A stretch of 64,000 nt of DNA from Bdellovibrio bacteriovorus str. Tiberius (GCF_000317895.1 NC_019567.1:3224001-3288000), one strand, 5' to 3'. Numbered from the stretch's first letter, positions 34,323-58,047 are shown. Notes: generated by a model from the sequence alone, not told the origin. Translations and numbers: made by a program.

Positions 34323-34387
34323 ATTTGAAACTCCTTAAGGATTATTTTTATTTTACCGATAGTCTTCTCAAAGGGGAACATGATTTC

Positions 34388-38171: not shown

Positions 38172-38908
38172 GAACACTGCTGGTCACCTCCGCGGTGACA
38201 TTTGTTCCGCACAACTATGACAAGCTGACGCTGCCGTTGGCGCAAGAGCCTCATATCGAGGCTCTTGTCATTATCGACAACCGCAGTTGGGATATTCTGG
38301 TTAAAGCATTCCTGCTGATACTGACTCTTGCCGCCCCCCGCATGGGCTGGCAGCTGCTAAAAAACTTTTTCGACAACTCGCTGAAACGAAAGCAGCAGGC
38401 CTATGAAGCCGCCGGGAAAAAGGTCTACGTCATCAAGGACATCAATTCCGACACATCCCTGGCCCTGCTGGAACGCCTGCAACCGGATCTGATTCTGAAT
38501 GCACGCACCCGTTCATTCTTTAAAAAGAAGCTGCTGGCCGTTCCCAAAATGGGATGTTTGAACATCCATCACGGCCTGCTGCCGGATCAGCGTGGTTTGA
38601 TGTGTGACTTTTGGGCCCATCTTTTAGACACCCCGGCAGGATTTTCCATTCATGAAATGACCTCGAAACTGGATGACGGCGCCTTGCTAAAGGTCGTGGA
38701 AGTTCCCTCCGATAAAAAGGATTATCTAAAGTCCCTGGATCTTGGAGCGTCATTCGAAGCAAAAGCAGCCTCGCAGATCCTTCAGGAGTTCGCCTCCCAA
38801 GGTAAGATTCAGGGTCTTGAGAACCAGAAAACTGAAAGAACGGTTTACAGAAGCAATCCACGCTTGCGTGATTTTTACCGGCTTCGTTCAAAAGGAGTCA
38901 GAATATGA
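38168..38908 (+). CDS. Formyltransferase-fold protein (lipid operon A, gene 2)
   Basis: A 246-residue protein of the formyl-transferase N fold (Fmt/ArnA/PurN type), which uses 10-formyl-tetrahydrofolate to formylate an amine. The catalytic Asn-His pair is visible in CLNIHHGLLPDQRG (near 137), and the Asp in SKLDDGALL (near 173). It lacks the C-terminal OB domain of Met-tRNA formyltransferase, so the target is not tRNA and may be an amino-sugar or amine made in this pathway. Both ends overlap neighbouring genes by 4 bases. The first 60 residues are unusual for the family. Confidence 0.78.
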   Translation: MRTLLVTSAVTFVPHNYDKLTLPLAQEPHIEALVIIDNRSWDILVKAFLLILTLAAPRMGWQLLKNFFDNSLKRKQQAYEAAGKKVYVIKDINSDTSLALLERLQPDLILNARTRSFFKKKLLAVPKMGCLNIHHGLLPDQRGLMCDFWAHLLDTPAGFSIHEMTSKLDDGALLKVVEVPSDKKDYLKSLDLGASFEAKAASQILQEFASQGKIQGLENQKTERTVYRSNPRLRDFYRLRSKGVRI

Positions 38909-41322
38909 AAACCATCATTGCTCTGCACGGAAACCCCGGCCATCCCGAGGACTGGAGCCTTTTGCAAAAGAGTCTGGATCCCAACGCCTACCGACTGCTG
39001 GCAGTTGAAGCTGACAGCGAGGAATGGATCCGCCTGCTGACTCAGGATAAATCCAAAAAAATTCTGCTGGGTCATTCCTGGGGCGGCTATCGTATTTTGA
39101 AATCCCTGCCAAAGTATCAGGACTATGTGGAACAGGTGGTGCTGGTCACCCCTTACATAAAACCCGAGCGTCCTTTGTCGGCTGTTGCCAAGGGGCTTTT
39201 GCAGTTGCCCGTTCTTGGTGACAAGTTGATCCAATCCAGTCATACAAAATCCAAAGACGGCTTCTTCGCTGATCTGATTCATCCCCTGAAAGCCGATGCC
39301 CTTCCCTATCTTGCCAAGGTTCAAGAACGCCTGCAGGACTGGAAGCTGTGGCAAAAAACCGTTTCCAACAAAATGAAAATGGAAGCCCATCCGTGGTCTG
39401 CCGGTGACGTCTGCAAGGTCCCCGTGACGGTGATCTATGGCCGCCAGGACAAGATCAGCCAGGATCAGGCACAGAATGAAATCGTCTCTAAATACCCGTC
39501 CCACAAGATTGTCCATGTCGACAATGCGGGACATGGTCTGCTGTGGTCTCACGTTCAGGACATTTTGAAAATTCTGACGACGGAAGCCAGCAGCAGTGCT
39601 TCAACCCCGGACAGCAAGATCGGTTATTATCCAGGTGAAGACGGAAGAAACAACGTCATCACCTACATGGAAAAACACTTGCGCGAATTCCCGGAACGCG
39701 TGGCTTTACGCTGGGCCAATCCGCAAGCTTTGGCGCAGTGGAATGGGGATCCCAAAACCCCCATCAAACACGATGAAATCACCTATCGCCACTTCGCCGC
39801 CCGCATCAACTCGTTTGCGCGAGGTCTGATGGACATCGGCATTAAAAAAGGCGACCGGGTCATCATCTTCCTGCCGATGAGTCTGGACATGTACACCGCC
39901 ATGTTTGCGGTTCAGCGTATTGGTGCCATTGCCGTGTTCCTGGATTCCTGGGCGCGCAGTCACCATCTGGGCGCTTCCGCAGAATGCGTGGGCCCGAAAG
40001 CCATGATCAGCTTCAAAATGGCGTTTGATCTGGTGGAACAAGTCCCCGAATTCAAGTCCATGCCGATCCGTGTTCTTTACGGCCCCGGCGACAAGTTCAC
40101 GCACAAATTTGAAGAGCTGCTGAAAGCAGAACCTTCCCCAATTGAGCCGGTGGAAAGTGAATTCACCGCCTTGATCACTTTCACAACGGGATCCACAGGA
40201 AAACCCAAGGGTGCCAACCGCACTCACCGATTCCTGTCGGCCCAGCACCATGCACTTTCTCACGTGATTCCGTACACCGAGAAAGACAAGGACATGCCGG
40301 CCTTCCCGATTTTCAGTCTGAACAACCTGGCCTCCGGCGTAACCACCATCTTGCCAGCATTGAATCTGGCGGCTCCGGCCGCTCATGATTCGGCTTTGCT
40401 GGCGTGTCAAATTATGCATGAAAATATCAACTGCACGACCCTGTCACCAAGTATGCTGGTGGGTGTAGCCAAGTTCTGTAAAGAGAACAACATTCAGCTG
40501 ACCGGACTGCGCCGAGTGGTGACCGGTGGGGCGCCGATTTCCAAGGATGACGTCAAAGCATTCTATGAAATCGCGCCGCAAACTGACCTGTGGATTTTGT
40601 ATGGATCGACGGAAGCAGAGCCGATGGCCCATATTGAAGGCCGCGACATGCTGAAAGAAAGCAATATCACCGATCCTGAAATCATCGAGGAAGGCGTGAA
40701 CGTCGGTCATATCAGTGAAGACATCGACTATCGCTTCATCCGTATCAAAGATGGTCCCATCGAACTGAAGGACGCCCCATGGTCCCAGATCGAGGTTGCC
40801 AATGGTGAAGTGGGTGAATTCATCTGTACCGGGGACCACGTCTGCCGCGACTATTACAATAATCCCGAGGCCTTCAAAACAACGAAGATCATGGATGAAA
40901 AAAACCGCGTATGGCACCGCACAGGCGATCTGGCTTACATCGATCCCGACAAGAACCTATGGATCGTGGGCCGGGTGAACAACGCCATCGAACGCGCCGG
41001 CAGGTACTATTTCCCGGTTCGGGCCGAAGTTCTGTTAAAGCGTATGGACTTTACGTATCGCTGTGCCTTCCTGGGTATGGATGATGCGAAGCTCGGTCAG
41101 GCCACCTATGCTGTAGTCGAACTGAAAGAAGGCATCGACGCGGCTATCTTTGATTTTGCCGCTGCGAAAAAAGAAATCCAGCGTGTCTTTGAGAAAAATA
41201 AAATTCCGGTGGATGAGATCAAATTCGTCAACAAGGTTCCCATGGATCCGCGCCACCATTCCAAAGTGGAATACAAAGTGCTGCGTGACCAGTTGAAAGA
41301 ACCGGGAGTTGTCATTGGCTAA
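38905..41322 (+). CDS. Alpha/beta-hydrolase fused to acyl-AMP ligase (lipid operon A, gene 3)
   Basis: An 805-residue fusion. Residues of about 1-215 are an alpha/beta-hydrolase with a Ser nucleophile in LLGHSWGGYRI (near 54), acid in YGRQDKISQ and His in NAGHGLLWSH. Residues of about 240-795 are an ANL-type adenylating enzyme with FTTGSTGKPKGANRTH (near 428), YGSTEAEPMA and the hinge VGRVNNAIERAGRYYFP. The domain order resembles OleBC beta-lactone/olefin proteins, but OleB uses an Asp nucleophile, so this is a different chemistry (acyl release or transfer). The start overlaps the upstream gene by 4 bases, and the end overlaps the UbiA-type gene. Confidence 0.85.
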   Translation: MKTIIALHGNPGHPEDWSLLQKSLDPNAYRLLAVEADSEEWIRLLTQDKSKKILLGHSWGGYRILKSLPKYQDYVEQVVLVTPYIKPERPLSAVAKGLLQLPVLGDKLIQSSHTKSKDGFFADLIHPLKADALPYLAKVQERLQDWKLWQKTVSNKMKMEAHPWSAGDVCKVPVTVIYGRQDKISQDQAQNEIVSKYPSHKIVHVDNAGHGLLWSHVQDILKILTTEASSSASTPDSKIGYYPGEDGRNNVITYMEKHLREFPERVALRWANPQALAQWNGDPKTPIKHDEITYRHFAARINSFARGLMDIGIKKGDRVIIFLPMSLDMYTAMFAVQRIGAIAVFLDSWARSHHLGASAECVGPKAMISFKMAFDLVEQVPEFKSMPIRVLYGPGDKFTHKFEELLKAEPSPIEPVESEFTALITFTTGSTGKPKGANRTHRFLSAQHHALSHVIPYTEKDKDMPAFPIFSLNNLASGVTTILPALNLAAPAAHDSALLACQIMHENINCTTLSPSMLVGVAKFCKENNIQLTGLRRVVTGGAPISKDDVKAFYEIAPQTDLWILYGSTEAEPMAHIEGRDMLKESNITDPEIIEEGVNVGHISEDIDYRFIRIKDGPIELKDAPWSQIEVANGEVGEFICTGDHVCRDYYNNPEAFKTTKIMDEKNRVWHRTGDLAYIDPDKNLWIVGRVNNAIERAGRYYFPVRAEVLLKRMDFTYRCAFLGMDDAKLGQATYAVVELKEGIDAAIFDFAAAKKEIQRVFEKNKIPVDEIKFVNKVPMDPRHHSKVEYKVLRDQLKEPGVVIG

Positions 41323-42178
41323 GTGGTGGATACTGGTCAAAGAAAGATTCAGTCCGGCCTCTTATGTGCCCATGATATTCCTGTTCTCATGGGCCAATGG
41401 GTTGTACCTGACTAAAACGCTTGAGCAGGACTGGAACTGGTCCCGCTTCGCCGTGGTCTTTGTACTGCTGCTATCGTTCTTTTTCCGCATGCGCCTGTTT
41501 GATGAAATCAAGGACTATGAAGTCGACCTGAAGGTCAACCCCACCCGCCCGCTGGCGCGCGGGGTTTTGTCCGTGGCGCAGGTCAAAAAAGCGCTGTTGG
41601 TTCTGATCGTGCTGGAACTGGTGATCGCTGGTTCTTTGGGGCTTTCGCCGTTCCTGGTTCACGCCATTGCCATTGGCTACAGCCTGATGATGTACGAAGA
41701 GTTTTTCATCGGGGATCTGCTGCGCCCGCATCTGACGACGTATGCGGTGTCTCACACTTTTGTGAGTGCTTTGCTGGGATTGTCTGCGGGTATTGCCATG
41801 ACCGGCATGGAACTGACCGAGCTGAAGACCGAACACGGTTTGTTCTTTTTGATGAACTGGTTCTTTTTCAATCTGTTTGAATTTGCCCGAAAGACCTTCG
41901 CCCCGGAAGAAGAGCGCGACCATGTTCCCAGCTATTCCAATATTTTTGGATGCACCGGAGCCTGGGCCCTTTCAATCAGTCAGGCGGTTTTGGGTGTGGC
42001 TTTGATTTATTTCCTGCATCCGAACCTGTGGCCACCGATTGCTTTGACGGTGTATGTGGCCGTGAGCCTTGCCTATCTTTTGCGTAAATCACGCAAGACG
42101 GCAGCCTTCTTTAGAAATATCAGCGGCGTTTATCTGCTTGTTCACTACATCATCCTTATATGTATCTTGGGAGTTTAA
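41315..42178 (+). CDS. UbiA-family membrane transferase (lipid operon A, gene 4)
   Basis: A 287-residue, seven-to-nine-helix membrane protein of the UbiA prenyltransferase superfamily, which moves an isoprenoid or similar hydrophobic group onto an acceptor. The first Asp-rich motif is visible near 69-90 (RLFDEIKDYEVDLKVNPTRPL, in pieces), and the second region has FEFARKT...SYSNIFG. The start is unusual: TTG 41315, with GGGAG 6-7 bases upstream; TTG 41309 is the alternative. It overlaps the upstream stop by 8 bases. The acceptor and donor are unknown. Polyprenyl-lipid, quinone and glycerolipid roles are all possible. Confidence 0.82.
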   Translation: MAKWWILVKERFSPASYVPMIFLFSWANGLYLTKTLEQDWNWSRFAVVFVLLLSFFFRMRLFDEIKDYEVDLKVNPTRPLARGVLSVAQVKKALLVLIVLELVIAGSLGLSPFLVHAIAIGYSLMMYEEFFIGDLLRPHLTTYAVSHTFVSALLGLSAGIAMTGMELTELKTEHGLFFLMNWFFFNLFEFARKTFAPEEERDHVPSYSNIFGCTGAWALSISQAVLGVALIYFLHPNLWPPIALTVYVAVSLAYLLRKSRKTAAFFRNISGVYLLVHYIILICILGV

Positions 42179-42180
42179 CC

Positions 42181-44865
42181 ATGCTTGTCACCCCCAAATC
42201 GACCCTGTTTTTTGCAAAGAACGAAGCCGGTGGTAAAGGCTTTAATCTTTATCTGATGTCCCAGGCCGGTTTACCGGTTCCTGAATGGGTGGTTTTCGGC
42301 AAACGCTACTTCCATGAGTTCCTGCAGTCCGCTGACGTGAAAGCCCGTCTGGAAGGTATTTTGGACCGCCTGCTTCGTCAGGAGCTAACCCCCGCTCTGG
42401 CGGAAAAAGAAGTTTTAAATCTGTTTGAATCGACTCCCCTGCCGGCGACGGTGGAATCCTCTTTGGAAGAAGCCCTGCAGTCCCTGGGGTCCGACAAGGT
42501 CTTTTCCGTGCGTTCTTCCGCCGCGGACGAAGACAGTCTGTCGCATTCTTTTGCCGGACAGCTTTCAAGCTATCTGTATGTTTCTGGCAAATCCGACATT
42601 CTGAAATACATTCGTCAGTGCTGGGCTTCGGCGTTTTCTGAACGCGGTCTGGTGTACCGTCTGGAAAACAAAATTGATCTTAAAAAAATCTCGGTGTCGG
42701 TGGTTCTTCAGCGCATGATTGACCCGGATAAGTCCGGTGTTTTGTTCACCTGTGACCCGGTGGCGAAAAAAACCGACACCTTCGTTGTTTCCTCGGTGTA
42801 TGGCGTGGGCGAAGGACTTGTTTCCGGGGCTTTGGATGCAGATTCATTCTGGCTTGATGCCAAAAGCGGAAAAATGCTGCGCGAAGAACTGGTCGAGAAA
42901 AAAGAGATGATGAAAAAGTCCGCTTCCGGTCATTGCGAAATGAAACCGGTCAGCGCGGATAAAGTGAACACCGCCTCTTTAAGCTCTGAGGAAATGAATG
43001 GCCTGTACCGCCTGGGGCAGAAAATTCAGGAACAATACCACCGCCCTCAGGATATCGAATGGGCCGTGGAAGGTGGCAAAATCTATATTCTGCAAACCCG
43101 TCCGGTCACAAGCCTTGATCAGGATCTGATTGGTTATCCGAATCTGTGGGACAACTCGAACATCATCGAGTCCTATGGTGGATTGACGTCGCCATTGAGT
43201 TTTAGCTTTGCTCTAAGAAACTACAAGGCCGTCTATGTGCAGTTCTGTGAAGTCCTGGGGGTTCCCAACGACATCATCAAGGACATGGACTCGTACTTAA
43301 GCTATATGCTGGGTTCCCTGGACGGCCGCGTGTATTATAACCTGTTTAACTGGTACAAGCTGGTCGGCGTCTTGCCGGGCTTTAAACAAAACCGCGAGTT
43401 CATGGAAACGATGATGGGTGTTTCTGAGGCACTCAGCGATGAAATCGCCAATCGTATCAAGCCCCATCCTTCCTGGGACACTCCGGTGGGCCGCCTGCGC
43501 AAGGCGATCACGGGCTTTAACTTTATCAAATACCACTTCACTATTCAGACAGTCGTTGATGACTTCCTGACGACCTTCCACAAGGACTATGACCGCTTCC
43601 GCGCCATGCCGCTGAAACGCATGCGTGGGGATCAGTTGATCCGCGTGTACATGGATGTGGAAAGAAACATGCTGGGTCGCTGGAAAGCGCCGATCATCAA
43701 TGACTTCCTGTGCATGGTGCACTTTGGTCTTTTGCGCAAGCTGACGACCACGTGGCTGAAGGAGCTTGATTCCACTATCCAGAATGACCTTCTGGCTGGT
43801 GAAGGCGGTCTGGAAAGTGCCGAGCCCACCAAGGCTCTGCTGCGACTGGCAGCCAAAGCCAACCAAAATGAAGGTCTGCGCAAGCTGATTGAAGAAACCG
43901 ATCCGAAAGAGGGTCTTGAGGCCCTGAACCAGTCCCCTTACACCGAGTTCTACAAGCTGGTGCTGGACTATCTGGACCGCTTCGGTTTCCGCTGCATGAG
44001 CGAAATGAAACTGGAAGAGATCGATCTTCTGACCGACCCAAGCTATCTGTTTGTGTGTCTGAAGAACTATCTGAAAGCCGGTCAGGTGGAAGCCCATGAC
44101 GACACCCACGAAAAGAATCTGCGCCAGCAGGCCGAAGCCAAAGTGGCGGGGCATCTGACAGGCATTAAGCAGAAAGTCTATTTCTGGGTTCTGAAGCACG
44201 CGCGCAAAGCGGTGAAAAACCGCGAGAACACGCGCTTTGCGCGCACCCGCATTTACGGGATTGCACGCACGATCTTCCAGACTATTGGTGAAGACCTGGC
44301 ATCGCTGGGCGCTTTGGAGAATCCGCGCGATATCTTCTGGCTGACCATCGAAGAGGTCTTTGGTATTTACAACGGCACGCTGCCGTCATTTGATCTGAAG
44401 GCCTTCGTTGAGCTTCGCAAGAAGGACTATGCCCGCTTCACCGAAGAAACCGACCCGCGTGTTATGACCCGTGGTGCAGTTTACTGGAACAACACATTTA
44501 TCAAAGAAGAAGACCTGTCTCAGGTCAGCAGTGAATCCGGCGACTGGGATCTGAAAGGTCTGCCGTGCTGCCCGGGTGTGCTTGAAGGCGTGGTGAAAGT
44601 CATCATCAATCCAAGCGACAACCTGGATCTGAACGGCGAGATTCTGGTCACCGCGCGCACCGATCCAGGATGGGTGCCGCTGTATCCGGCGATTTCAGGT
44701 CTGTTGGTGGAACGTGGCAGTCTGCTTTCGCATTCCGCCATCGTCGCCCGAGAAATGGGAATCCCGGCGATCGTCAGTATTCCGGGACTGACCAAGAAAC
44801 TGAAAACCGGAATGCGCGTGCGCATCGACGCCAAAGCCGGAACCATCAAAATTCTGTCAGAGTAG
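42181..44865 (+). CDS. Rifampin-phosphotransferase-like dikinase (lipid operon A, gene 5)
   Basis: An 894-residue PEP-synthase-like dikinase. The ATP-grasp half (about 1-315) has KVFSVRSSAADEDS, FAGQLSSYLYV and EGGKIYILQTRPV. The middle part (about 320-800) is unlike PEP synthase. The swivelling phosphohistidine domain sits at the very C-terminus (LLSHSAIVAREMGIPAIVS, His near 853). The PEP-binding TIM barrel is absent. This is the order of rifampin phosphotransferase, where the central domain binds the substrate to be phosphorylated. Here it would phosphorylate an operon-A product (inference). ATG 42181 behind GGGAG is chosen over 42160. Confidence 0.85.
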   Translation: MLVTPKSTLFFAKNEAGGKGFNLYLMSQAGLPVPEWVVFGKRYFHEFLQSADVKARLEGILDRLLRQELTPALAEKEVLNLFESTPLPATVESSLEEALQSLGSDKVFSVRSSAADEDSLSHSFAGQLSSYLYVSGKSDILKYIRQCWASAFSERGLVYRLENKIDLKKISVSVVLQRMIDPDKSGVLFTCDPVAKKTDTFVVSSVYGVGEGLVSGALDADSFWLDAKSGKMLREELVEKKEMMKKSASGHCEMKPVSADKVNTASLSSEEMNGLYRLGQKIQEQYHRPQDIEWAVEGGKIYILQTRPVTSLDQDLIGYPNLWDNSNIIESYGGLTSPLSFSFALRNYKAVYVQFCEVLGVPNDIIKDMDSYLSYMLGSLDGRVYYNLFNWYKLVGVLPGFKQNREFMETMMGVSEALSDEIANRIKPHPSWDTPVGRLRKAITGFNFIKYHFTIQTVVDDFLTTFHKDYDRFRAMPLKRMRGDQLIRVYMDVERNMLGRWKAPIINDFLCMVHFGLLRKLTTTWLKELDSTIQNDLLAGEGGLESAEPTKALLRLAAKANQNEGLRKLIEETDPKEGLEALNQSPYTEFYKLVLDYLDRFGFRCMSEMKLEEIDLLTDPSYLFVCLKNYLKAGQVEAHDDTHEKNLRQQAEAKVAGHLTGIKQKVYFWVLKHARKAVKNRENTRFARTRIYGIARTIFQTIGEDLASLGALENPRDIFWLTIEEVFGIYNGTLPSFDLKAFVELRKKDYARFTEETDPRVMTRGAVYWNNTFIKEEDLSQVSSESGDWDLKGLPCCPGVLEGVVKVIINPSDNLDLNGEILVTARTDPGWVPLYPAISGLLVERGSLLSHSAIVAREMGIPAIVSIPGLTKKLKTGMRVRIDAKAGTIKILSE

Positions 44866-46769: not shown

Positions 46770-46891
46770 GGCGGTTCAAAACGGTTGCTATGCAAGGCGG
46801 AGGTAAGCCCTCGCAGCGCAGGCGTGCTCTAAGCACGTCGGAGCGAGAAGGCTTGCCGACAACGCAGTCAGAGCGGCCGTTTTCAACCGCC
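46770..46891. repeat. Nested palindromic intergenic repeat
   Basis: Outer arms GGCGGTTCAAAACGG (46770-46784) and CCGTTTTCAACCGCC (46877-46891) match at 14 of 15 positions. Inside are GCAAGGCGGAGG, GGTAAGCC/GGCTTGCC (46802-46809 / 46850-46857) and the hairpin CGTGC-TCTAA-GCACG (46823-46837). This resembles the GCAAGGCG...AACGCAG palindromic repeats scattered between genes in many Proteobacteria. The right arm supplies the last two codons and stop of the DUF3419 gene. Confidence 0.7.
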
Positions 46892-47986
46892 GACCTTTCT
46901 GAAGATATGGAATTGGTAGACTCCAGTTCCGTCTTTATGCTGAGCCCAGACATTCTTGTCGCCCAGCTCTTCCCACCCCTTCAGATCAATCGCCGTTGGC
47001 GCCCGCATGAAGGATCGGATCACCATCTGAGTTCCGGCTTTGCTGTCCGTATTCAGCCTTTGCAGAATCTGATTGGCATCACGCTGTTCAAGATAAGAAA
47101 TCGTGTCTGATAAAGAGATAAAGTCATATGCATGCTTTGGCAGTTCTTCCAGCAGATTGCCGTGCAGGTAGCGCACTTCGGTTTTGGACTTTTTCACCGC
47201 CGCGACAACGTGTTCGTGCGCTTCCAAAGGAAGGCCTTCTTCATAAGCAATGCGGCCCAGGAAAAGGATCTGCATGAAATAGTTCTTACGCACCAGTTGC
47301 GTGCGGAAGATCCGGTCAAATTCTTCCATGATAAACTGCCACGGGGCCCGCTGCTCGGTTTTGTGATCGGCGCGACCACTGAAGTGGCCTTTGTACAGGT
47401 ACTTGTTGAACACAAACTCGCTGGCCGCCACACGAATAAAGCTGTTCCAGCGGATTTTCGGCCAGTGCTTTTCATAAAGCTCGATCTGCTCGGACAAAGT
47501 TTGTGCGGCAAAGACCTTGCTGAAATCACACTGCAAGACATCACGGAATAAATAACCCAGTTTCTGGAAATGGGATTCCCAGCGGCCCAGTAATATGAAC
47601 CCGCGTGGCTTCCAGCCTTCCATACGGTCTTGCCAGTAACTGGTGGCTGCGGCTGACAAAGTCAGACGCTTGAAAAGATCTTCACGGCTGTCGCCTTCAT
47701 CATGGCCGCCTTGCAAAGCGCCGCGATAGCCCATCAGGAACAGGTATTCTTCATAGGTCAAAGTCTTCATCGCCTGCAGGCGCAGCTCGCACAGGTAAAG
47801 CTGACTGACCGACATGTCGATGACATCCAGATATTTAGGATTCTTGGCAATCAGTGGCAGGCAGCGAGCGCCGGAGCCCGCAATGCTGAACACACGGTTT
47901 GCACCCTCGGGCAGTAAATCAAATTCAATGCGCGTGTCTTCATTGGACAGGGTGTAGTTTAAATCAGAGAAGTATTCTTTTGCCAT
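46883..47986 (-). CDS. BtaA/DUF3419-like transferase (lipid operon B, last gene)
   Basis: A 367-residue protein of the DUF3419 family that includes BtaA, which moves the 3-amino-3-carboxypropyl group of S-adenosylmethionine onto diacylglycerol to make betaine-lipid head groups. YTLSNEDTRIEF opens the protein, followed by the nucleotide-binding FSIAGSGARCLPL and DVIDMSVSQLYLCELRL. No BtaB-type methyltransferase is adjacent, so a full betaine-lipid pathway is not shown. Its terminal GG and stop come from the palindromic repeat. It ends operon B, 12 bases after the barrel gene. Confidence 0.78.
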   Translation of the reverse strand: MAKEYFSDLNYTLSNEDTRIEFDLLPEGANRVFSIAGSGARCLPLIAKNPKYLDVIDMSVSQLYLCELRLQAMKTLTYEEYLFLMGYRGALQGGHDEGDSREDLFKRLTLSAAATSYWQDRMEGWKPRGFILLGRWESHFQKLGYLFRDVLQCDFSKVFAAQTLSEQIELYEKHWPKIRWNSFIRVAASEFVFNKYLYKGHFSGRADHKTEQRAPWQFIMEEFDRIFRTQLVRKNYFMQILFLGRIAYEEGLPLEAHEHVVAAVKKSKTEVRYLHGNLLEELPKHAYDFISLSDTISYLEQRDANQILQRLNTDSKAGTQMVIRSFMRAPTAIDLKGWEELGDKNVWAQHKDGTGVYQFHIFRKVGG

Positions 47987-47998
47987 TGCTGACTCCCG

Positions 47999-49066
47999 TT
48001 AAAAAGGCAAACTGCCGGTAAATTCCAAACGCAAACCGACGACATAACCGCCGGTGATTTCTTCATACATATCGTAAAGCCCGCCGTCTTTCCCCTGATA
48101 GCTCTGGGCAAAGATGGTGGAGGTAAAATAGTCCGTCCAGTTATAACCATAACTGGCGTTCATAAAAAGATCCTTGGTGGTGTCATTCTGATAAAGCTGG
48201 AAGAACACGTCATGACGGTTCGGATTCCACTGAGCACTGACGTAATAAGACACTTGAGTTTGCGTCCCCATCAGCGTGTTGACCTCATAAGCCGTCACCT
48301 GAGGCAGCACCACCCAGTTCCCCAGGAACAAATCCATACCCACGGTCCCAAAGCTGCGGTCACTTTTGATCGTATCCGGTAAAGTGGTGTCATCCACATA
48401 GCCGTACTCAAATTTGGGAACCGCCGTTTCAAAAGCATAGTTGGCGGTAAAACCATAGTGATTACGGTTCAAAATCTGCGCCGACACCAGCGACAGACCA
48501 AAACCTTTGACGTCCATTTTCAGACGCCCACCAAAGCTGGTGTTCTTTTCTTCAACTGGTTCGGGCGCGGGAACCGGATATGTGGATTCGGCAACGTCGC
48601 CGATCCCCACCAGATCCAAAGACCACGTTTCTCGGGCATAAGAAAAAGACGCCCCGGTCGGATGAGTCAGCTGATCCTGGAACGGATCAAAGAACAATCT
48701 TGCCCAGCGGCGGCCGGACCATACGTCCAAAGAAGGCAGAGACCACATTTCGCTCCAGCGGATGGCCTGACGACCCACACGCACATAGAATGAATCCAGT
48801 TTGAATTCCAGATAGGCTTCCTGCAAATAACCTTTTGAAGGAGACCGGCGGATATAGGCCTGATCTTCATTGCCTTCAAAGTCGCCAAAGCCTTCAATGA
48901 AGATTCCGAATGGCCCCAAGTTGCTGTTCAGTTTGCCTTTCAAAATAAGACGGTTCGCAAGTTCGTCCTCCTGACCACGGATATACTCATAGCGAGGCGC
49001 AAACACCAAGTCTGCCCTCGCCCAAGGAGTCATCATCAGAAGTGTCAGAAGAACCAGAAGTCTCAC
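47999..49066 (-). CDS. Outer-membrane barrel, DUF1302-like (lipid operon B)
   Basis: A 355-residue barrel with a signal peptide (residues 1-18, ARA site). YLEFKLDSFYVRVGRQAIRW (about 90-110) resembles DUF1302-type barrels found with LolA-like and lipid export proteins elsewhere. It ends in GLRLEFTGSLPF. Its start abuts the stop of the LolA-like gene. Export of a lipid or glycolipid is a reasonable guess, given the neighbours. Confidence 0.72.
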   Translation of the reverse strand: MRLLVLLTLLMMTPWARADLVFAPRYEYIRGQEDELANRLILKGKLNSNLGPFGIFIEGFGDFEGNEDQAYIRRSPSKGYLQEAYLEFKLDSFYVRVGRQAIRWSEMWSLPSLDVWSGRRWARLFFDPFQDQLTHPTGASFSYARETWSLDLVGIGDVAESTYPVPAPEPVEEKNTSFGGRLKMDVKGFGLSLVSAQILNRNHYGFTANYAFETAVPKFEYGYVDDTTLPDTIKSDRSFGTVGMDLFLGNWVVLPQVTAYEVNTLMGTQTQVSYYVSAQWNPNRHDVFFQLYQNDTTKDLFMNASYGYNWTDYFTSTIFAQSYQGKDGGLYDMYEEITGGYVVGLRLEFTGSLPF

Positions 49067-49762
49067 TTATTTCATGCTCTCCATATTGCGGACCGTAAAG
49101 AAGGAATCACTGAAGTCCTTCTTATCCATGGAAAGAATGCGGATGTAGCTGATTTGCTTATTAGTGTCTTCGATTTTCAAAGTCGTTGGGCGAACTGCGC
49201 CCGAGATGCTTTTATAGTCTTCGAACGCTGCGCGCTTCAGAACCGTCTTGCCGTTCAGACCCAGATATTCCGCACGCAACGGAGCAAACGAGCCTTTTTT
49301 AAGCCACAGACGAACCCACGCATAAGTCAGGTTGTCTTTGTTGCCTTTCAATAGCAGCTGAACCTCGTTGGCGTTTTCACTTTCTTTGGTCACATCATAG
49401 TCGCCGTACCAGCGAGTGCGGGAAATATCCCCGTTCGCCACTTGACCTGAAAGCTTTTGCGCCAATGACAGACGCATGGAACGCTTCAGGTTTGGAACAT
49501 AGGCATTAAAATCACGATCCAGCATCAGCATGTTGCGACCCTTGTCGCGGGCAGGTTCTTTGGTGACGATCAGGGTTTTGTCCTGACCTTTCAAATAAAC
49601 CTGAAAAACCGAGGTGTTTTCAGACGTCTCGACCTTGATTTTCATTTCATAGGATTCAGCAGGGTTGCGGATATTGTCCGCTTTTTTCACCCATTCGGCC
49701 GGGTTTTCCGCCAGGGCATGCAAAGAGAATAACAAGCTGCTGATCGCCAAAAGTGTCTTCAT
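49067..49762 (-). CDS. LolA-like periplasmic carrier (lipid operon B)
   Basis: A 231-residue protein with a signal peptide (residues 1-18, HALA site) and LolA/DUF4292-like sequence (SYEMKIKVETSENTSVFQVY, LMLDRDFNAYVPNLKRSMRL, VRLWLKKGSFAPLRAEYLG), which would form a half-barrel with a hydrophobic cavity. In this family proteins ferry lipoproteins or lipids across the periplasm. It sits between the acyl-reductase-like gene (9-base gap) and the DUF1302-like barrel (abutting), which suggests a lipid carrier. Confidence 0.78.
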   Translation of the reverse strand: MKTLLAISSLLFSLHALAENPAEWVKKADNIRNPAESYEMKIKVETSENTSVFQVYLKGQDKTLIVTKEPARDKGRNMLMLDRDFNAYVPNLKRSMRLSLAQKLSGQVANGDISRTRWYGDYDVTKESENANEVQLLLKGNKDNLTYAWVRLWLKKGSFAPLRAEYLGLNGKTVLKRAAFEDYKSISGAVRPTTLKIEDTNKQISYIRILSMDKKDFSDSFFTVRNMESMK

Positions 49763-49771
49763 GACATCTCC

Positions 49772-51901
49772 TTATTTTTTTCTTTTAGACAAAGCCAGTT
49801 CACGGGTCAGTTCGATTTCCTTGTCAGTGATGATTCCGGTGTGACCCTGAATCGCTGCAAGTTTAACCCCGTGGCGTTTCGCCATCTGATAGATCTGTTT
49901 TACTTTGTGCCACTCGATATCGCGGCCCATGGTGAAGGGCTCATACTGACCTTCCAAAGTCAGCAGGGCTGTTTCCGCCAGACACGCATACACCGTGTTC
50001 CCCGGAAGACCCATATCAAAATCTATTTCCACCGGCCCCGGCAAGACCACTTCACCAGATTCAATAATCAAAACATCCGGACGCTGTTTGGCATCCTCGA
50101 TATCAAAATCCAGAGGACGAGAACAGTCACACACCACCGCGCCAGGCTTCAAGCGCATGACGTCGACAATCTTGTGATCAAATGCCGAAGTCGCCGTCAC
50201 CAGCACATCCGCATCCGCCGCCAGGTCATTGGCATCGGTGGTTATGATGACTTCACAGTTTGGTGACATCTGCTGGATTTCCTGGCGCAGTTCTTCCAAG
50301 CGGTTCAGTCGTGGAGCCACCAGGCACAGACGTTTAAAGATCATTGATAACAGCTTCGCTGAAACTTTACCGATTGATCCCGTCGCCCCGATAACCATGG
50401 CCATACCATCGACATAGCCCGTGTTCGGATCCTGCTTCAACAGGCGCATCTTCTGCACCACATCGGCCAGGGCCCACAAGGTGGCCGAGGCACTGAGACT
50501 GTTCCCGGTAGTGACCGGAATCGGGCTGTTTTGATTGATTGTAATCCCCTGATCGCCCACGATTTTCGTGTAAGCTCCAAGGCCGATCATCTTCGCCCCG
50601 CGATTGGCGGCATCGTAACAGATACTTTCAATCTTGCGATAAATCACTTCAGGGTCAGAATTCTTCAGCACCTTCGGAGTCGCGGGCAAGGCATAGATGA
50701 TGCCGTTGATTTCCTTGCCATTATTTTCACTGATGATGTGCTTGATATGACCGTACACGAACGGCGGCGCTTTCGCGGCCATCCGGTCAAATGGATCATT
50801 CCAGGTTTTTGGCATATGCTTCAGCACACCCAAGCCCGGTACATGCATAAAGTCATTGTGAGAAAGCGCATGAATCACAAAGGCAAAATCCGGCTCCGGC
50901 TGGCTGAACACTTTGTTGCGAACCGCATTGAACCCTTGAGAGATCTTTGTCTGCGTGGATGAATTTCGGGTCATCACGTATTTACGCGCCACCTGCCGGA
51001 TCTCGACGTCCTCGGTGATCAGCTGTTCCCATTCTTCGATGGACAAAGCAGCCGTGCGTTTATGCGACAAGCGCAGCATCGCATCCAGAACAGAATAGTT
51101 CATATACGGATGCACGCGGTAGTTTTCCGGGAACAGATTGATGATACTGCGCGGAGAATACTTTTTGGCTTCTTCTTCCATTGCCGGGTGTGAAGACCAG
51201 ATCACCAGATCCTTGCCGCGCACAAAATCCGTCGCCTGATCGAACAAAAGCAGCATCGGCAGATCACAGAACACGTACTGCACGTTTTCAACCTGAGCTG
51301 CCAAAGAAGACCGGCTGATCTTCTGCATCTTGGTTTGCGCCAATGGAGTATTACGTTTCATGTCCTTGATGTTAGCCACATTCAAAGCCAGCTTTGAAAG
51401 AGTCATCAAACCCGGGAAGGGCTGAATCATCCACGGCAGACCCAAAAGCGAATACGCATCGCCGATATACACCGACTTGCGGTAACGGTGACGGATGTAT
51501 TCTTCAAGCTCGGTGCAAAGAACAGCTGTTGGGAAGAACGTGCCCCGTTCCGGCTGGATGATGCCGGATTCAATATGTTTTACCAAAGAGTTGATATTGG
51601 CAATTTCACGCAACCCCGTCCCGTCACACAACGGCACCGGCGAAGGAGTCGCCATGATTTCCAAGTACTGGCGGTGCACGTAGCTTTTCTGATCCAGCTT
51701 GATCACCGGCGGCAAACTGGTCAATGCAAACGCATCCACCTGATTGCGCAGAGTTTCGATCAGTCTGACAACCGCATCGACCGAGAAATTGGCACTGAAG
51801 CGCTGGACTTCATAGTGATCCCCGGCAAAGTCAAATTCATAGGCGGCATCCCAGTGCGGGCGTCCGAAACTGATCTCAGCGATTCGATACGTACGCTTCA
51901 T
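49772..51901 (-). CDS. Acyl-ACP/acyl-CoA reductase-like protein with N-terminal extension (lipid operon B)
   Basis: A 709-residue protein. Its C-terminal half (about 410-690) resembles long-chain acyl-ACP reductases: GAKMIGLGAYTKIVGDQG, PVTTGNSLSASATLWAL and the Rossmann motif VIGATGSIGKVSAKLL. Acyl-ACP reductases of cyanobacteria are about 340 residues, so the first 400 residues are an extra domain I do not recognise. It could reduce an acyl chain to an aldehyde for ether-lipid or alkane-type lipids (inference). ATG 51901 behind GGAG is chosen over 51985, and it overlaps the SDR gene by 26 bases. Confidence 0.75.
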   Translation of the reverse strand: MKRTYRIAEISFGRPHWDAAYEFDFAGDHYEVQRFSANFSVDAVVRLIETLRNQVDAFALTSLPPVIKLDQKSYVHRQYLEIMATPSPVPLCDGTGLREIANINSLVKHIESGIIQPERGTFFPTAVLCTELEEYIRHRYRKSVYIGDAYSLLGLPWMIQPFPGLMTLSKLALNVANIKDMKRNTPLAQTKMQKISRSSLAAQVENVQYVFCDLPMLLLFDQATDFVRGKDLVIWSSHPAMEEEAKKYSPRSIINLFPENYRVHPYMNYSVLDAMLRLSHKRTAALSIEEWEQLITEDVEIRQVARKYVMTRNSSTQTKISQGFNAVRNKVFSQPEPDFAFVIHALSHNDFMHVPGLGVLKHMPKTWNDPFDRMAAKAPPFVYGHIKHIISENNGKEINGIIYALPATPKVLKNSDPEVIYRKIESICYDAANRGAKMIGLGAYTKIVGDQGITINQNSPIPVTTGNSLSASATLWALADVVQKMRLLKQDPNTGYVDGMAMVIGATGSIGKVSAKLLSMIFKRLCLVAPRLNRLEELRQEIQQMSPNCEVIITTDANDLAADADVLVTATSAFDHKIVDVMRLKPGAVVCDCSRPLDFDIEDAKQRPDVLIIESGEVVLPGPVEIDFDMGLPGNTVYACLAETALLTLEGQYEPFTMGRDIEWHKVKQIYQMAKRHGVKLAAIQGHTGIITDKEIELTRELALSKRKK

Positions 51902-52895
51902 ATCCGCTCCAGAATTTTTGTTCGTATTGGAAGAATTCAGGACACCATGTTTCGCCCAGGACTTCCCGGGTGCTGGTGGTGTCATAAATCGGGAAATTCA
52001 TAAGATAATGCAGTTCTTCTTCAGGGAAGCGCGCGATGAAGCTTGAAAGCTTCAGCACCAGGGCCTCGGAAATCTTATCGATCAGGATCACGCCTTTATG
52101 AGGAATAGCCTGGGACTTCAAGGCCGAAAGATAAAGATCACGAACCGGCAACCCCTGATTCGGGGTCACATGGAAACTGTGATAGCCCTGCGGTTTGGTC
52201 TGCACCGCCCACTCGCAGAACTTCACAATGGCTTCAGCACACTTGTCGACCGGAACCAGCGGCAAACGGGTTTTATCACTACCCGGAAGAGGCAAAGACG
52301 TCGGAATGGATTCGACCACCGCCCGGATTTTATTGAAGGCTTCGGCCGCATGATAAGGCCCGTCGATCCGCTCGATGCTGCCGGTTTTCGTGTCCCCGAC
52401 CAAAACACCCAGGCGCAGATTGATGCGGCCGGTGGTGTGCACCGTCGGCCAGTTCTGCAGAACCTGTTCGCCATGGGCTTTGGATTCAGAATAAGCATCC
52501 GGGAAAGTCTTTTGGAAGTTCAAATCGTTGGGCTTTACCACCGTCAACGGGGAATTAATTCCCGCCGCCACGGTGCTGGTGTTTACGAAGAAAGGAATTT
52601 CAAGAGCTTCGGCCACTTTTAAAGCAGTGCCCATGGCCGAGATATTGTGCTGATAGCAATCCACTTTGGGTGCGGTCAGTTCATACAATCCCGCCATGTG
52701 CAGAAACAGCGCGTATTTCTTTTTGCGTAAAGCATCCAGATCCAGGCCTGCATTCCACTGACAAAGGTCTCCCTGGACTTCGGTCTTGCCTGAACGGGAC
52801 AGCACGTCCACTTCGAATTTTTCGCGAAGCAAAGGAATGACCCGTTTACCCAGGAAGCCTGTGCCTCCGGTAACGAGAATGCGTGGTTTGGTCAC
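51876..52895 (-). CDS. NAD-dependent epimerase/dehydratase, extended SDR (lipid operon B)
   Basis: A 339-residue extended SDR. Motifs are TGGTGFLGKRV (about 9-19), HMAG, the Ser of NTSTVAAG, and YSESKAHG (YxxxK, near 136). It is cytoplasmic with no signal. The substrate is unknown; by context a lipid or acyl intermediate is likely (OleD and ether-lipid SDRs belong to this fold). It is 18 bases after the lipid-kinase gene and overlaps the acyl-reductase-like gene by 26 bases. Confidence 0.85.
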   Translation of the reverse strand: MTKPRILVTGGTGFLGKRVIPLLREKFEVDVLSRSGKTEVQGDLCQWNAGLDLDALRKKKYALFLHMAGLYELTAPKVDCYQHNISAMGTALKVAEALEIPFFVNTSTVAAGINSPLTVVKPNDLNFQKTFPDAYSESKAHGEQVLQNWPTVHTTGRINLRLGVLVGDTKTGSIERIDGPYHAAEAFNKIRAVVESIPTSLPLPGSDKTRLPLVPVDKCAEAIVKFCEWAVQTKPQGYHSFHVTPNQGLPVRDLYLSALKSQAIPHKGVILIDKISEALVLKLSSFIARFPEEELHYLMNFPIYDTTSTREVLGETWCPEFFQYEQKFWSGYEAYVSNR

Positions 52896-52913
52896 GATGA
52901 CCTCCGAATAGAA

Positions 52914-53912
52914 CTATTGTCGGACCATGACTGGCAGTCCGTGATGCAGGCAACGAACAGTGATTTCCTGAACATCTCTGAGAAGGATCTCGCCATCCCC
53001 AAAGAAAGTCAAAGCGCGCTCGGGATTCTGGCTCTTTAGTCTGAACTCTTTCAGCTCAAATGACTTAAAGACCGGCGATTTTTCGACGGAACCGCGACGA
53101 AGATGGTAAGCCGCCAAAGTGTGACCAGGAATACTGTTGGTTTCAGAAAGAAGCAGGTTGACCGTACCGTCGGTATTGGAAGTAAACGGAGCCGGTACAA
53201 AACTGGATCCGATCTTTTGCTGATTGTTGATCAAAACAATCGGAGACGACGTTTCGACATTCACCTTGCCGGGAATTTCAATTTCCAGACCCCAGCCTTC
53301 CGGATTCCAGGTGCGAATCGCTTCGGCGGTCATCATGGAATAAACACTCGGCCCCATTTTCTTGACCGCATGATAACTTTTCTGTGCAAGGAAACGATAG
53401 GCTTTTGCTGACTTCGGGCAGTTCGCCAAAGTCTGCAGATGAGAACGGAATTTATTGGCAAGCTCTGCCGCTTTCGCCGGAAGGCCCAGGCCTCCGTTGG
53501 TCAGCATGTAAGCAACTTGTTCGCCGGAGCTGACTTCAATCACGTCGATGTTTTTCACAACACCTTCAAAGATGTTGCGAACAGCAGTGTCAATGCGGGT
53601 GGAAACTCCGATTTCGTGGGCAAGGTCATTGGCTGTTCCGGATCGAACAATGGCAATCGGAGGCAGCTTCCCGCCGTTCTGGTATTTCATGATGGCTTGG
53701 ATCGCCACGTTGATAGTGCCGTCACCACCGCAGATAATAAAGTAGTCCGTTTTCTTCGCTTGTTCTTCCTGAACAAAGTCAAACATCTCTGTCATCGTCG
53801 AAGGACGACAGAAACGCAGATCGCAACGGAAAAGTGCTTCACGCACCTTCGCCTCGATCAACTCTGCATTCACAGAGCCTGCTTTGGAATTAACAAGGAC
53901 GGACACTCTCAT
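52914..53912 (-). CDS. Diacylglycerol kinase/YegS-like lipid kinase (lipid operon B, first gene)
   Basis: A 332-residue lipid kinase of the DAGK/YegS family. The catalytic GGDGTINVAIQAI (about 61-73) and VRSGTANDLAHEIG (about 89-102) are intact, with NGGLG near 143. It would phosphorylate diacylglycerol, sphingosine or another lipid alcohol. It is the first gene of operon B and could feed the next enzymes or the lipid pool. Confidence 0.85.
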   Translation of the reverse strand: MRVSVLVNSKAGSVNAELIEAKVREALFRCDLRFCRPSTMTEMFDFVQEEQAKKTDYFIICGGDGTINVAIQAIMKYQNGGKLPPIAIVRSGTANDLAHEIGVSTRIDTAVRNIFEGVVKNIDVIEVSSGEQVAYMLTNGGLGLPAKAAELANKFRSHLQTLANCPKSAKAYRFLAQKSYHAVKKMGPSVYSMMTAEAIRTWNPEGWGLEIEIPGKVNVETSSPIVLINNQQKIGSSFVPAPFTSNTDGTVNLLLSETNSIPGHTLAAYHLRRGSVEKSPVFKSFELKEFRLKSQNPERALTFFGDGEILLRDVQEITVRCLHHGLPVMVRQ

Positions 53913-56111: not shown

Positions 56112-56145
56112 AAAAAGCGGCCTAAAAAGCCGCTTTTTTCGTTTT
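56112..56145. terminator. Bidirectional intrinsic terminator
   Basis: AAAAGCGGC / GCCGCTTTT stem (about 56114-56122 / 56130-56138), seven-base loop and T-run. It separates convergent genes. Confidence 0.9.
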
Positions 56146-57352
56146 ATGTGGAACGCAAAAGTTCCGGGATGGATTTCTTCAAAAGCTTTCGGACCGGCCA
56201 CAAACTTGCCACCACCGTGGCGATCATCGGCAGCAGTAACGCCTGCAGATAGTGGCTGGGCTGAATATCCAGGAACACAAAGAACTGTCGTGTGATCCCC
56301 GGAGCCGGAGGCATCGGAATCCCCTGACGAAGCAGGGTTGCATCCACCAGGATCGCAATGCAAATCCCCAGGAATCCACCCAGCACACCCAGCAAACTGT
56401 TTTCAATCATCAGGATCTTAAACAGACGGCTGCGTTTTTCCCCGTTCGCCCGCAATGCCCCCATCTCGCCCGCTCTTTCCAGCAAGCCAGTGGAAATCAC
56501 ATTAAAGATCCCCATCGCCACAATCACCAGAATGATCGAACGGATGAACGAAAACTGTGCATTCAGGAAGTCCACAGAGTTCTGATAATAGTTCTTGTCC
56601 AGAATCTCGAATGGCACCGCTTCCAGGGACGGATTGGCTTTGCGCAAATCTGCATCAACAGCCTTCCACGCTTCCACGCCTTTCGTTGCCAGCGAAAACA
56701 TCTCGACGCGAGTGGTATCAAGCAACGCTTGAGCCTGCTTCAGATCCACACGATAGAAGGAATCATCGATGACTTTCTTACCAGTGAAGAAGATCCCTGC
56801 CACCGTCAGATCCGCCCCGTTCAGCTGACCGTTCACGGTCTGAGTCAACAACGTCACCACATCGCCAGTTTTGGCGTCGATACTTTCTGCCAGACCTTTT
56901 CCAAGAATGATCTGATCCTGACCCTGCAGATCGTGGCCTTCGATAAAGTTCATCTCGGTAAAGAACTTGTTTTCTCGCTCGGGAATCACGCCCTCGCCTT
57001 TACCGCCCAGGGTGATGCCACCTTTAACGATAAAGGAATAAAAAGACACGCGCGGGAAGACTTCGGTCACGGACGCAGAACTGCGAATCTGTTTTTCGAT
57101 TTCATCCGCATTTTCAAACCACAGCTTCCACGGGGTTTCGTGAACTTTGCCGAAATAGTTCTGCGGGAATACCTGGCCGTAACCGTAGTAACCGTGAATA
57201 ACGTTTTCACGGTACTGGTTCATCACACCCGTGTTAAAGCCCTGATAGATCAACAAACCTGCAGCCCCCAAAGCCACCGTACACAAGCTGGCCCAGGTGC
57301 GACGAGGATTTCTGAACAGATTGCGCCAGGAGATTTTCAACAGTTCCAACAT
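56144..57352 (-). CDS. ABC transporter permease, FtsX/LolE-MacB type (operon C, last gene)
   Basis: A 402-residue permease of the MacB/LolCE family. One N-terminal membrane helix (near 20-40), a large periplasmic domain (about 45-280) and three C-terminal helices are visible (IRSIILVIVAMGIFNV, LLGVLGGFLGICIAIL, ALLLPMIATVVASLW). RAGEMGALRANGEKRS is the typical coupling helix. Such permeases extract lipoproteins or drive export with a LolD-type ATPase. The ATPase gene is immediately upstream and shares one base. Confidence 0.88.
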   Translation of the reverse strand: MLELLKISWRNLFRNPRRTWASLCTVALGAAGLLIYQGFNTGVMNQYRENVIHGYYGYGQVFPQNYFGKVHETPWKLWFENADEIEKQIRSSASVTEVFPRVSFYSFIVKGGITLGGKGEGVIPERENKFFTEMNFIEGHDLQGQDQIILGKGLAESIDAKTGDVVTLLTQTVNGQLNGADLTVAGIFFTGKKVIDDSFYRVDLKQAQALLDTTRVEMFSLATKGVEAWKAVDADLRKANPSLEAVPFEILDKNYYQNSVDFLNAQFSFIRSIILVIVAMGIFNVISTGLLERAGEMGALRANGEKRSRLFKILMIENSLLGVLGGFLGICIAILVDATLLRQGIPMPPAPGITRQFFVFLDIQPSHYLQALLLPMIATVVASLWPVRKLLKKSIPELLRST

Positions 57353-58047
57353 TATTTATCCCCCTGGCTTTTCGTGTTGTCGATCATGCCGTCTTTCATG
57401 CGATACACGGATTTGGCAAAACTCACCAGATGCGAATCGTGAGTCGAGAAAATGAAGCTGGTGTTTTCAGACTTCTGCAGTTCTTTGAATGCGTTGATGG
57501 TTTTTTCCGCCGTCACCGAATCCAGATTCGCCGTCGGCTCATCGGCCAGAACCACCGCAGGCTTTTTTGCAATCGCGCGGGCAATGGCCACACGCTGGCG
57601 TTGACCACCGGAAAGCTCTAGCGGCTTTTTCTTGGCGTGATCGGCAAGACCCAATAAGTCCAAAGTCTCCATCGCCACTTTGTGGGCGTTGGCGTGGTTG
57701 TAACCCAAAGAAGGCAGGAAGTAGGACGTGTTTTCAAGTACGGTCAAAGTGGGAATCAGATAGAATGACTGGAAGATGAATCCAACCTTGTGCAGACGCA
57801 CGTTTTCTTTTTCAGACTCTGGCAGATGAGTGACATCTTCACCGGCAAATTCCAAATGCCCATTGCTTGGAGTATCAATCAAACCCAAAAGATTCAGCAA
57901 CGTGGTTTTACCGGTTCCACTCGGACCCACGATGCAGGTGAAACAGCCTTTTTCCAGTTCCAGATCAATACCTTTCAGAACCGGCACTTGTTTGCCGTTC
58001 CAAAGGTATGAATATTCCAGGCCCTTAAGACGATACAGAGCACTCAT
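57352..58047 (-). CDS. ABC transporter ATPase, LolD/MacB type (operon C)
   Basis: A 231-residue ABC ATPase: Walker A GPSGTGKTTLLN (about 42-53), signature LSGGQRQRVAIARA, Walker B VVLADEPTANLD and switch STHD. It powers the 402-residue permease, whose gene overlaps its stop by one base. A good GGAGT ribosome binding site is present. LolD- and MacB-type ATPases cannot be told apart from this sequence alone. Confidence 0.93.
   Translation of the reverse strand: MSALYRLKGLEYSYLWNGKQVPVLKGIDLELEKGCFTCIVGPSGTGKTTLLNLLGLIDTPSNGHLEFAGEDVTHLPESEKENVRLHKVGFIFQSFYLIPTLTVLENTSYFLPSLGYNHANAHKVAMETLDLLGLADHAKKKPLELSGGQRQRVAIARAIAKKPAVVLADEPTANLDSVTAEKTINAFKELQKSENTSFIFSTHDSHLVSFAKSVYRMKDGMIDNTKSQGDK

Follow-up and report, generated by a model that had tools for sequence, protein, structure and literature searches.

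Parts of several described systems recur in the gene cluster considered here, a run of six genes in a 64,000-nucleotide stretch of the Bdellovibrio bacteriovorus Tiberius genome (hereafter the window; positions 3,224,001-3,288,000 of a single contig of 3,988,594 bases) together with its neighbouring genes. BtaA/BtaB of Rhodobacter and Sinorhizobium (PMC3972451) have in common with it the DUF3419 fold, residues and the predicted use of S-adenosylmethionine (SAM) as aminocarboxypropyl donor; however, the DUF3419 protein of the window is divergent, lacks a BtaB-like partner and is set among an acyl-acyl carrier protein (ACP) reductase (AAR) domain, a short-chain dehydrogenase/reductase (SDR), a kinase, a UbiA transferase, a dikinase and an exporter. 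AAR (6jzu) and the reductase domain of PigE (4ppm) share the fold, the Rossmann GATGxIG motif and the cysteine of ACxAE with the window reductase, which, unlike the cyanobacterial AAR, stands behind a domain of about 335 aa without known family, in a genome lacking aldehyde-deformylating oxygenase (ADO), and, unlike PigE, has no aminotransferase domain. In rifampin phosphotransferase (Rph), PigC and RedH the ATP-grasp domain is N-terminal and the phospho-His domain C-terminal, as in the window dikinase, which, unlike these enzymes, is annotated as phosphoenolpyruvate (PEP) synthase. The LolD-like ATPase, LolCE-like permease and LolA-like carrier have counterparts in LolCDE-LolA sorting, but this transporter has a single permease, scores under the Lol cut-offs, is paralogous to better Lol candidates, has a porin-type barrel and lipid enzymes as partners, and is inherited only with them. 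A LolA-like domain and a porin are also associated with long-chain lipophilic molecules in Thalassolituus growing on long-chain alkanes (PMC6304351), with an RND-type (MMPL) protein where the window has an ATP-binding cassette (ABC)/FtsX exporter.

We consider it probable that the six genes form the core of a module of about 13 genes that makes a fatty-aldehyde-derived, aminocarboxypropyl-containing lipid or lipid-like molecule, which a dedicated route resembling Lol conveys to the outer membrane. This proposal is based on gene content, protein families, intact catalytic motifs, the predicted folds of the AAR domain and the barrel, and co-inheritance. The features of the module, by position in the window, are as follows:

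36390..38171, plus strand: long-chain acyl ligase (FadD11-like), first gene of the partner operon (AMP-binding 1.8e-74; NF038343 371 bits)
38168..38908, plus strand: formyltransferase-like protein (PF00551 1.6e-11; NxHxxLLP and LDDG motifs)
38905..41322, plus strand: Ser alpha/beta-hydrolase fused to an OleC-like adenylate-forming ligase (GHSWG nucleophile; profile matches)
41309..42178, plus strand: UbiA-superfamily membrane transferase (PRK05951 2.9e-14; DEIKDYEVD motif)
42160..44865, plus strand: Rph/PigC/RedH-type dikinase annotated as PEP synthase (NF004881 1418 bits)
46883..47986, minus strand: DUF3419 protein, 367 aa, predicted SAM-dependent 3-amino-3-carboxypropyl transferase (PF11899 8.3e-65, 219.9 bits)
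47999..49066, minus strand: outer-membrane barrel, 355 aa, OprD/AlgE-type fold, distantly DUF1302-related (model and profile match)
49067..49762, minus strand: LolA-like periplasmic carrier, 231 aa (PF17131 6.4e-32, 111 bits against a cut-off of 30)
49772..51901, minus strand: two-domain acyl-thioester reductase, 709 aa (C-terminal AAR/PigE-type domain, about 338-698; N-terminal domain, about 1-335)
51876..52895, minus strand: extended SDR, 339 aa, male-sterility/fatty-acyl-reductase type (NAD_binding_4 8.2e-16; Epimerase 2e-10)
52914..53912, minus strand: YegS/DAGK-type lipid kinase, 332 aa, first gene of the six-gene operon (DAGK_cat 9.7e-20; GGDGT motif)
56144..57352, minus strand: LolCE/MacB-like permease (FtsX 2e-18; MacB_PCD 1.9e-10; TIGR02212 1.7e-24)
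57352..58047, minus strand: LolD-like ABC ATPase (TIGR02211 202 bits against a cut-off of 308; synteny)

The initial annotation described the six genes as tightly packed. The six open reading frames (ORFs) were found where it placed them, at 46883-53912, all on the minus strand and with gaps of at most 18 bases, but one junction is an overlap of 26 bases; from the kinase to the DUF3419 gene, the junctions are +18, -26, +9, 0 and +12 bases. The overlap between the SDR and the reductase has this length because the true start of the reductase is the ATG at 51901, behind a GGAG sequence and 84 bases downstream of the start given by the ORF caller. The families named for the six genes were essentially right, as judged by profile matches and the barrel fold. 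A scan for consensus promoters was uninformative (4 found against 9.5 expected). By its reductase, the closest named strain is B. bacteriovorus kdesi (93% identical).

Gene order was compared in 45 loci found with the AAR protein as query, each flanked on either side by 5 kb or more. All 45 contained the kinase, as well as the AAR used as query; the SDR was present in 43 and the DUF3419 gene in 42; the dikinase, ligase and UbiA genes were found in 36, 33 and 30 loci, and the LolA-like, ABC and window-type barrel genes in 14, 11 and 6. Gene order, which the initial annotation proposed to compare, is conserved in related genomes, and the cluster, judged by this conservation, is therefore not a chance one. 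Bdellovibrio and related genomes have the ATPase and permease genes directly upstream of the kinase, or reversed between the reductase and lolA; in the window, one variable NHL-repeat gene separates them from the kinase. The partner operon is divergently adjacent to the kinase-SDR-AAR-DUF3419 genes in Bacteriovoracaceae and Halobacteriovorax, an order seen in 16 of the 45 loci, and in two loci (L111 and L112) the genes of all eight enzymes follow one another in the same direction. The formyltransferase (19 loci) and c9, an unnamed family of about 354 residues (16 loci), never occurred in the same locus, as would be expected of alternatives. An alphaproteobacterial plasmid (Roseinatronobacter) carries UbiA, the dikinase, DUF3419, a c9 relative and the ligase in one operon, and genome G036 has a UbiA-c9 fusion beside DUF3419. 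From their position beside the kinase-SDR-AAR-DUF3419 genes across Bdellovibrionota, the ABC exporter and the convergent five-gene operon belong to the same unit. The limits 46883-53912 were consequently too narrow, and the plus-strand genes, which make up the other half of the pathway, had been missed.

The AAR protein was found in 20 of 59 relatives. The dikinase was present in all 20 of these, also where the operons lie apart, and in one of the 39 AAR-negative relatives; DUF3419 was present in 19 of the 20 (Fisher p values of 7.5e-15 for AAR-dikinase and 2e-11 for AAR-DUF3419, not corrected for phylogeny). Within Bdellovibrio, AAR, DUF3419, the dikinase, the permease (threshold E <= 1e-20) and the barrel occur in the same 16 of 24 genomes, and the hydrolase-ligase fusion in 14 of these 16 and in none of the others. 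On the gyrB tree, the presence and absence of the module require six changes (4-6 in bootstraps), at least two of which are forced by well-supported branches; the shared distribution is therefore not the effect of one clade. In genomes G011 and G022 the module has another gene order and is nested among genomes without it, and this pattern suggests transfer. One co-inherited module is thus well supported, and the proposed joining of synthesis and envelope-transport genes stands as one conserved unit by synteny and shared distribution.

The reductase provides what would be the firmest enzymatic step, the reduction of a thioester to an aldehyde, as predicted from its fold and cysteine. The model (mean pLDDT 83.6) aligns over residues 338-692 with AAR 6jzu (Z 33.9, rmsd 2.8 over 323 residues), placing Cys640 with the cysteine of the ACFAE motif of AAR; this residue is invariant across 38 aligned relatives and ACxAE is found in 72 of 73 long homologues. 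The NCBIfam matches, to PigE (5.8e-52) and AcACP_reductase (2.5e-16), are both under their cut-offs, and the cut-off of the AAR equivalog TIGR04058 is not reached (59.9 against 449.7 bits); the C-terminal domain is AAR-related rather than the cyanobacterial equivalog. For the N-terminal 335 residues there was no Pfam match and, in a whole-chain search occupied by matches of the AAR domain, no fold match. In Armatimonadota the AAR gene is immediately preceded by a separate ORF that matches this N-terminal family weakly. The kinase motif GGDGT is kept in 65 of 66 homologues; the SDR has TGGTGFLG and YSESK motifs, matches PRK07201 below the cut-off (6.5e-32) and had no homologue in a sequence search of the PDB.

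An AAR domain could also feed hydrocarbon or olefin production from aldehydes, through ADO or an Ole-type pathway, and the hydrolase-ligase fusion has below-cut-off matches to olefin beta-lactone synthetase. However, a search of the window's genome found no ADO, and alkane synthesis by AAR/ADO was therefore rejected. The hydrolase OleB uses an Asp nucleophile, whereas the nucleophile elbow is Ser in the family members carrying the hydrolase domain, and the ligase falls far short of the OleC equivalog (213.8 against a cut-off of 900). The Ole pathway was likewise rejected on these grounds, and we regard hydrocarbon production of either kind as scarcely credible.

The DUF3419 (BtaA family) match is full-length (profile positions 3-385 of 385), and D57, Q62 and G134 are common to the window protein and the BtaA-like protein of G053, a genome of the same order. 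Transfer of the aminocarboxypropyl group from SAM is what the family leads one to expect. These features agree with synthesis of a betaine lipid (diacylglyceryl trimethylhomoserine, DGTS) by BtaA and accessory genes, as the initial annotation proposed. In G053, however, the gene for a 379-bit DUF3419 protein overlaps a class I methyltransferase gene, as expected of BtaA/BtaB, whereas the best match to this BtaB-like partner in the window's genome has 31 bits and 24% identity, the reference having been identified by its neighbourhood and not being an experimentally proven BtaB. DGTS synthesis needs BtaB (PMC3972451), and in view of this absence DGTS is an unlikely product; diacylglycerol-based DGTS also needs neither AAR, UbiA nor the dikinase. 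The window protein appears to belong to a divergent group away from BtaA that travels with UbiA, the Rph-like dikinase and the adenylating ligase; in the DUF3419 tree, branches outside the module are very long and BtaA is not securely placed. A sequence search of the PDB with the DUF3419 protein found no homologue. A role as BtaA was not upheld, and betaine-lipid synthesis, for want of a BtaB-like partner, was rejected as very improbable.

DUF3419 genes were also seen in other settings. On a Deefgea piscis plasmid (L046, 9249-11478), the gene lies between those for an iron-containing redox enzyme and SpeD (adenosylmethionine decarboxylase), an arrangement in which DUF3419 is used outside lipid operons. 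Rhizobium and Shinella plasmids (L047, L138 and L140) have a DUF3419 operon with KASIII, SDR, an MBL-fold hydrolase and an adenylating ligase, enzyme types arranged analogously to the module of the window.

The genes of the partner operon (36390-44865) overlap, and the operon is convergent to the six minus-strand genes. Its dikinase matches RedH (396 bits) and PigC (377 bits) as well as NF004881, and both its end regions align with Rph 5fbs. The phospho-His domain is C-terminal as in Rph, rather than in the ATP-grasp/His/PEP-binding order, which argues against the name carried by NF004881; the PEP synthase reading was rejected, and the protein is better regarded as a dikinase with another substrate. 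A Ser/Thr kinase with a PEGA domain (34325-36349, plus strand) is encoded immediately before the acyl ligase. Between the two operons, at 44983-46194 on the minus strand, lies a gene for a 403-aa secreted-looking protein without NCBIfam match, whose YGHA and FHSCNSG motifs are reminiscent of a caspase-like (clan CD) His/Cys dyad.

PigE, RedH and PigC are among the closest named relatives of the reductase and dikinase, and for this reason the chief competing explanation is a lipid-like natural product or pigment that is secreted, rather than a membrane lipid, formed by prodiginine-like chemistry (a thioester-reductase aldehyde condensed by a dikinase-type ligase) and exported through the LolDCE-like, LolA-like and barrel proteins. 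The AAR domain scores best against PigE (177 bits, against 60 for AAR), a cytochrome P450 accompanies some variants, and the relative G028 has a PigE-like/PigC-like pair. However, the reductase lacks the aminotransferase domain that PigE has, pyrrole genes were not noticed in any of the loci examined, and the DAGK-type lipid kinase is present in all 45 loci. LolA-type carriers, moreover, bind acyl chains. We consider such a metabolite unlikely. The pair in G028 (L045; contig 10, 8565-13707), one gene PigE-like (858 aa) and its neighbour PigC/RedH-like (859 aa), has a P450 close by and may be part of a prodiginine-type cluster; G028 is a member of the family to which the window belongs.

The LolA-like and barrel proteins both start with signal-peptide-like stretches; that of the carrier ends ALA|EN, without lipobox. 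The barrel model (pLDDT 83.7) is porin-type, with OprD/OccK and AlgE as nearest structures (Z 21-24; for OccK2, Z 23.6 and rmsd 2.9 over 295 residues). This agrees with the barrel named in the initial annotation. The protein itself has no Pfam match, DUF1302 included; a counterpart in another locus is a marginal DUF1302 match (22.0 against a cut-off of 23.2). Window and other-locus barrels match by profile with a probability of 98.4%. The ABC genes adjoin the operon and would supply the inner-membrane exporter that the initial annotation had not named. The NHL-repeat gene between them and the kinase (54270-56111, plus strand) varies among Bdellovibrio genomes (84% to absent) and has a strong terminator-like hairpin at 56111-56139.

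By their scores, the permease and ATPase are related to Lol proteins, and the LolA-like family is annotated as lipoprotein-sorting, so that the transport genes might be a second Lol system sitting by chance in a lipid operon, with no lipid exported. However, the permease does not reach the LolCE equivalog cut-off (85.7 against 362 bits), and two other loci of the genome score 264 and 211, likewise under it. The module exporter is a paralogue, with better LolCE candidates elsewhere in the genome, which makes a general lipoprotein role unlikely. Within the genus, the permease and barrel are confined to the 16 module-positive genomes, and the barrel is porin-type, not LolB-like. A second lipoprotein-sorting system is thus improbable.

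In the proposed lipid pathway, acyl chains would be activated by the ligases, or supplied as acyl-ACP/CoA, and the AAR domain would reduce the thioester to an aldehyde by means of Cys640, with a nicotinamide cofactor. Either this aldehyde or a condensation product could then be reduced by the SDR, and intermediates phosphorylated or condensed by the lipid kinase and the Rph-like dikinase. DUF3419 would add 3-amino-3-carboxypropyl from SAM, and UbiA and the ligase/formyltransferase may tailor the headgroup. Finally, the LolDCE-like exporter would lift the product from the inner membrane, the LolA-like carrier would ferry it, and the barrel would insert or release it. We infer the substrates, step order, transport direction and product identity, including the order and substrates of the kinase, SDR, UbiA, dikinase and ligases; export by the transporter, carrier and barrel is likewise suggested by families, adjacency and shared distribution.

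Several observations weigh against this pathway. The AAR, kinase and SDR families are broad in substrate, and since the AAR and the dikinase have prodiginine enzymes as their closest named relatives, the product, presumed to be an outer-membrane lipid, may instead be a secreted lipid-like metabolite. The transport genes lie near the enzymes in a minority of loci and, as far as the loci indicate, are not adjacent in most Bacteriovoracaceae; for the barrel and LolA-like genes, proximity to the enzymes is chiefly a feature of Bdellovibrionaceae, along with a few other lineages. Synthesis and transport can therefore be called firmly coupled only in part of the group. The co-occurrence statistics, moreover, are corrected for phylogeny no further than the gyrB tree.

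A search of the open-access literature found nothing describing the module, and none of the DUF3419 papers found mentioned Bdellovibrio. We tentatively suggest, as a possibility short of an even chance, that this Lol-type route (LolDCE-like exporter, LolA-like carrier and porin-type barrel) carries a new lipid class and not lipoproteins. A fatty aldehyde and an aminocarboxypropyl group from SAM would be the building blocks of this lipid, and the pathway joining them occurs throughout predatory and related Bdellovibrionota, with parts of it also on plasmids of Alphaproteobacteria. If so, DUF3419, the fused AAR domain, the UbiA transferase and the misnamed PEP synthase would be assigned to one testable pathway, and Lol-type machinery would prove capable of specialising in non-protein lipids. 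For predatory bacteria, in which the envelope has to withstand invasion and be remodelled during it, this would mean a new pathway for an outer-membrane lipid, complete with a dedicated transporter.

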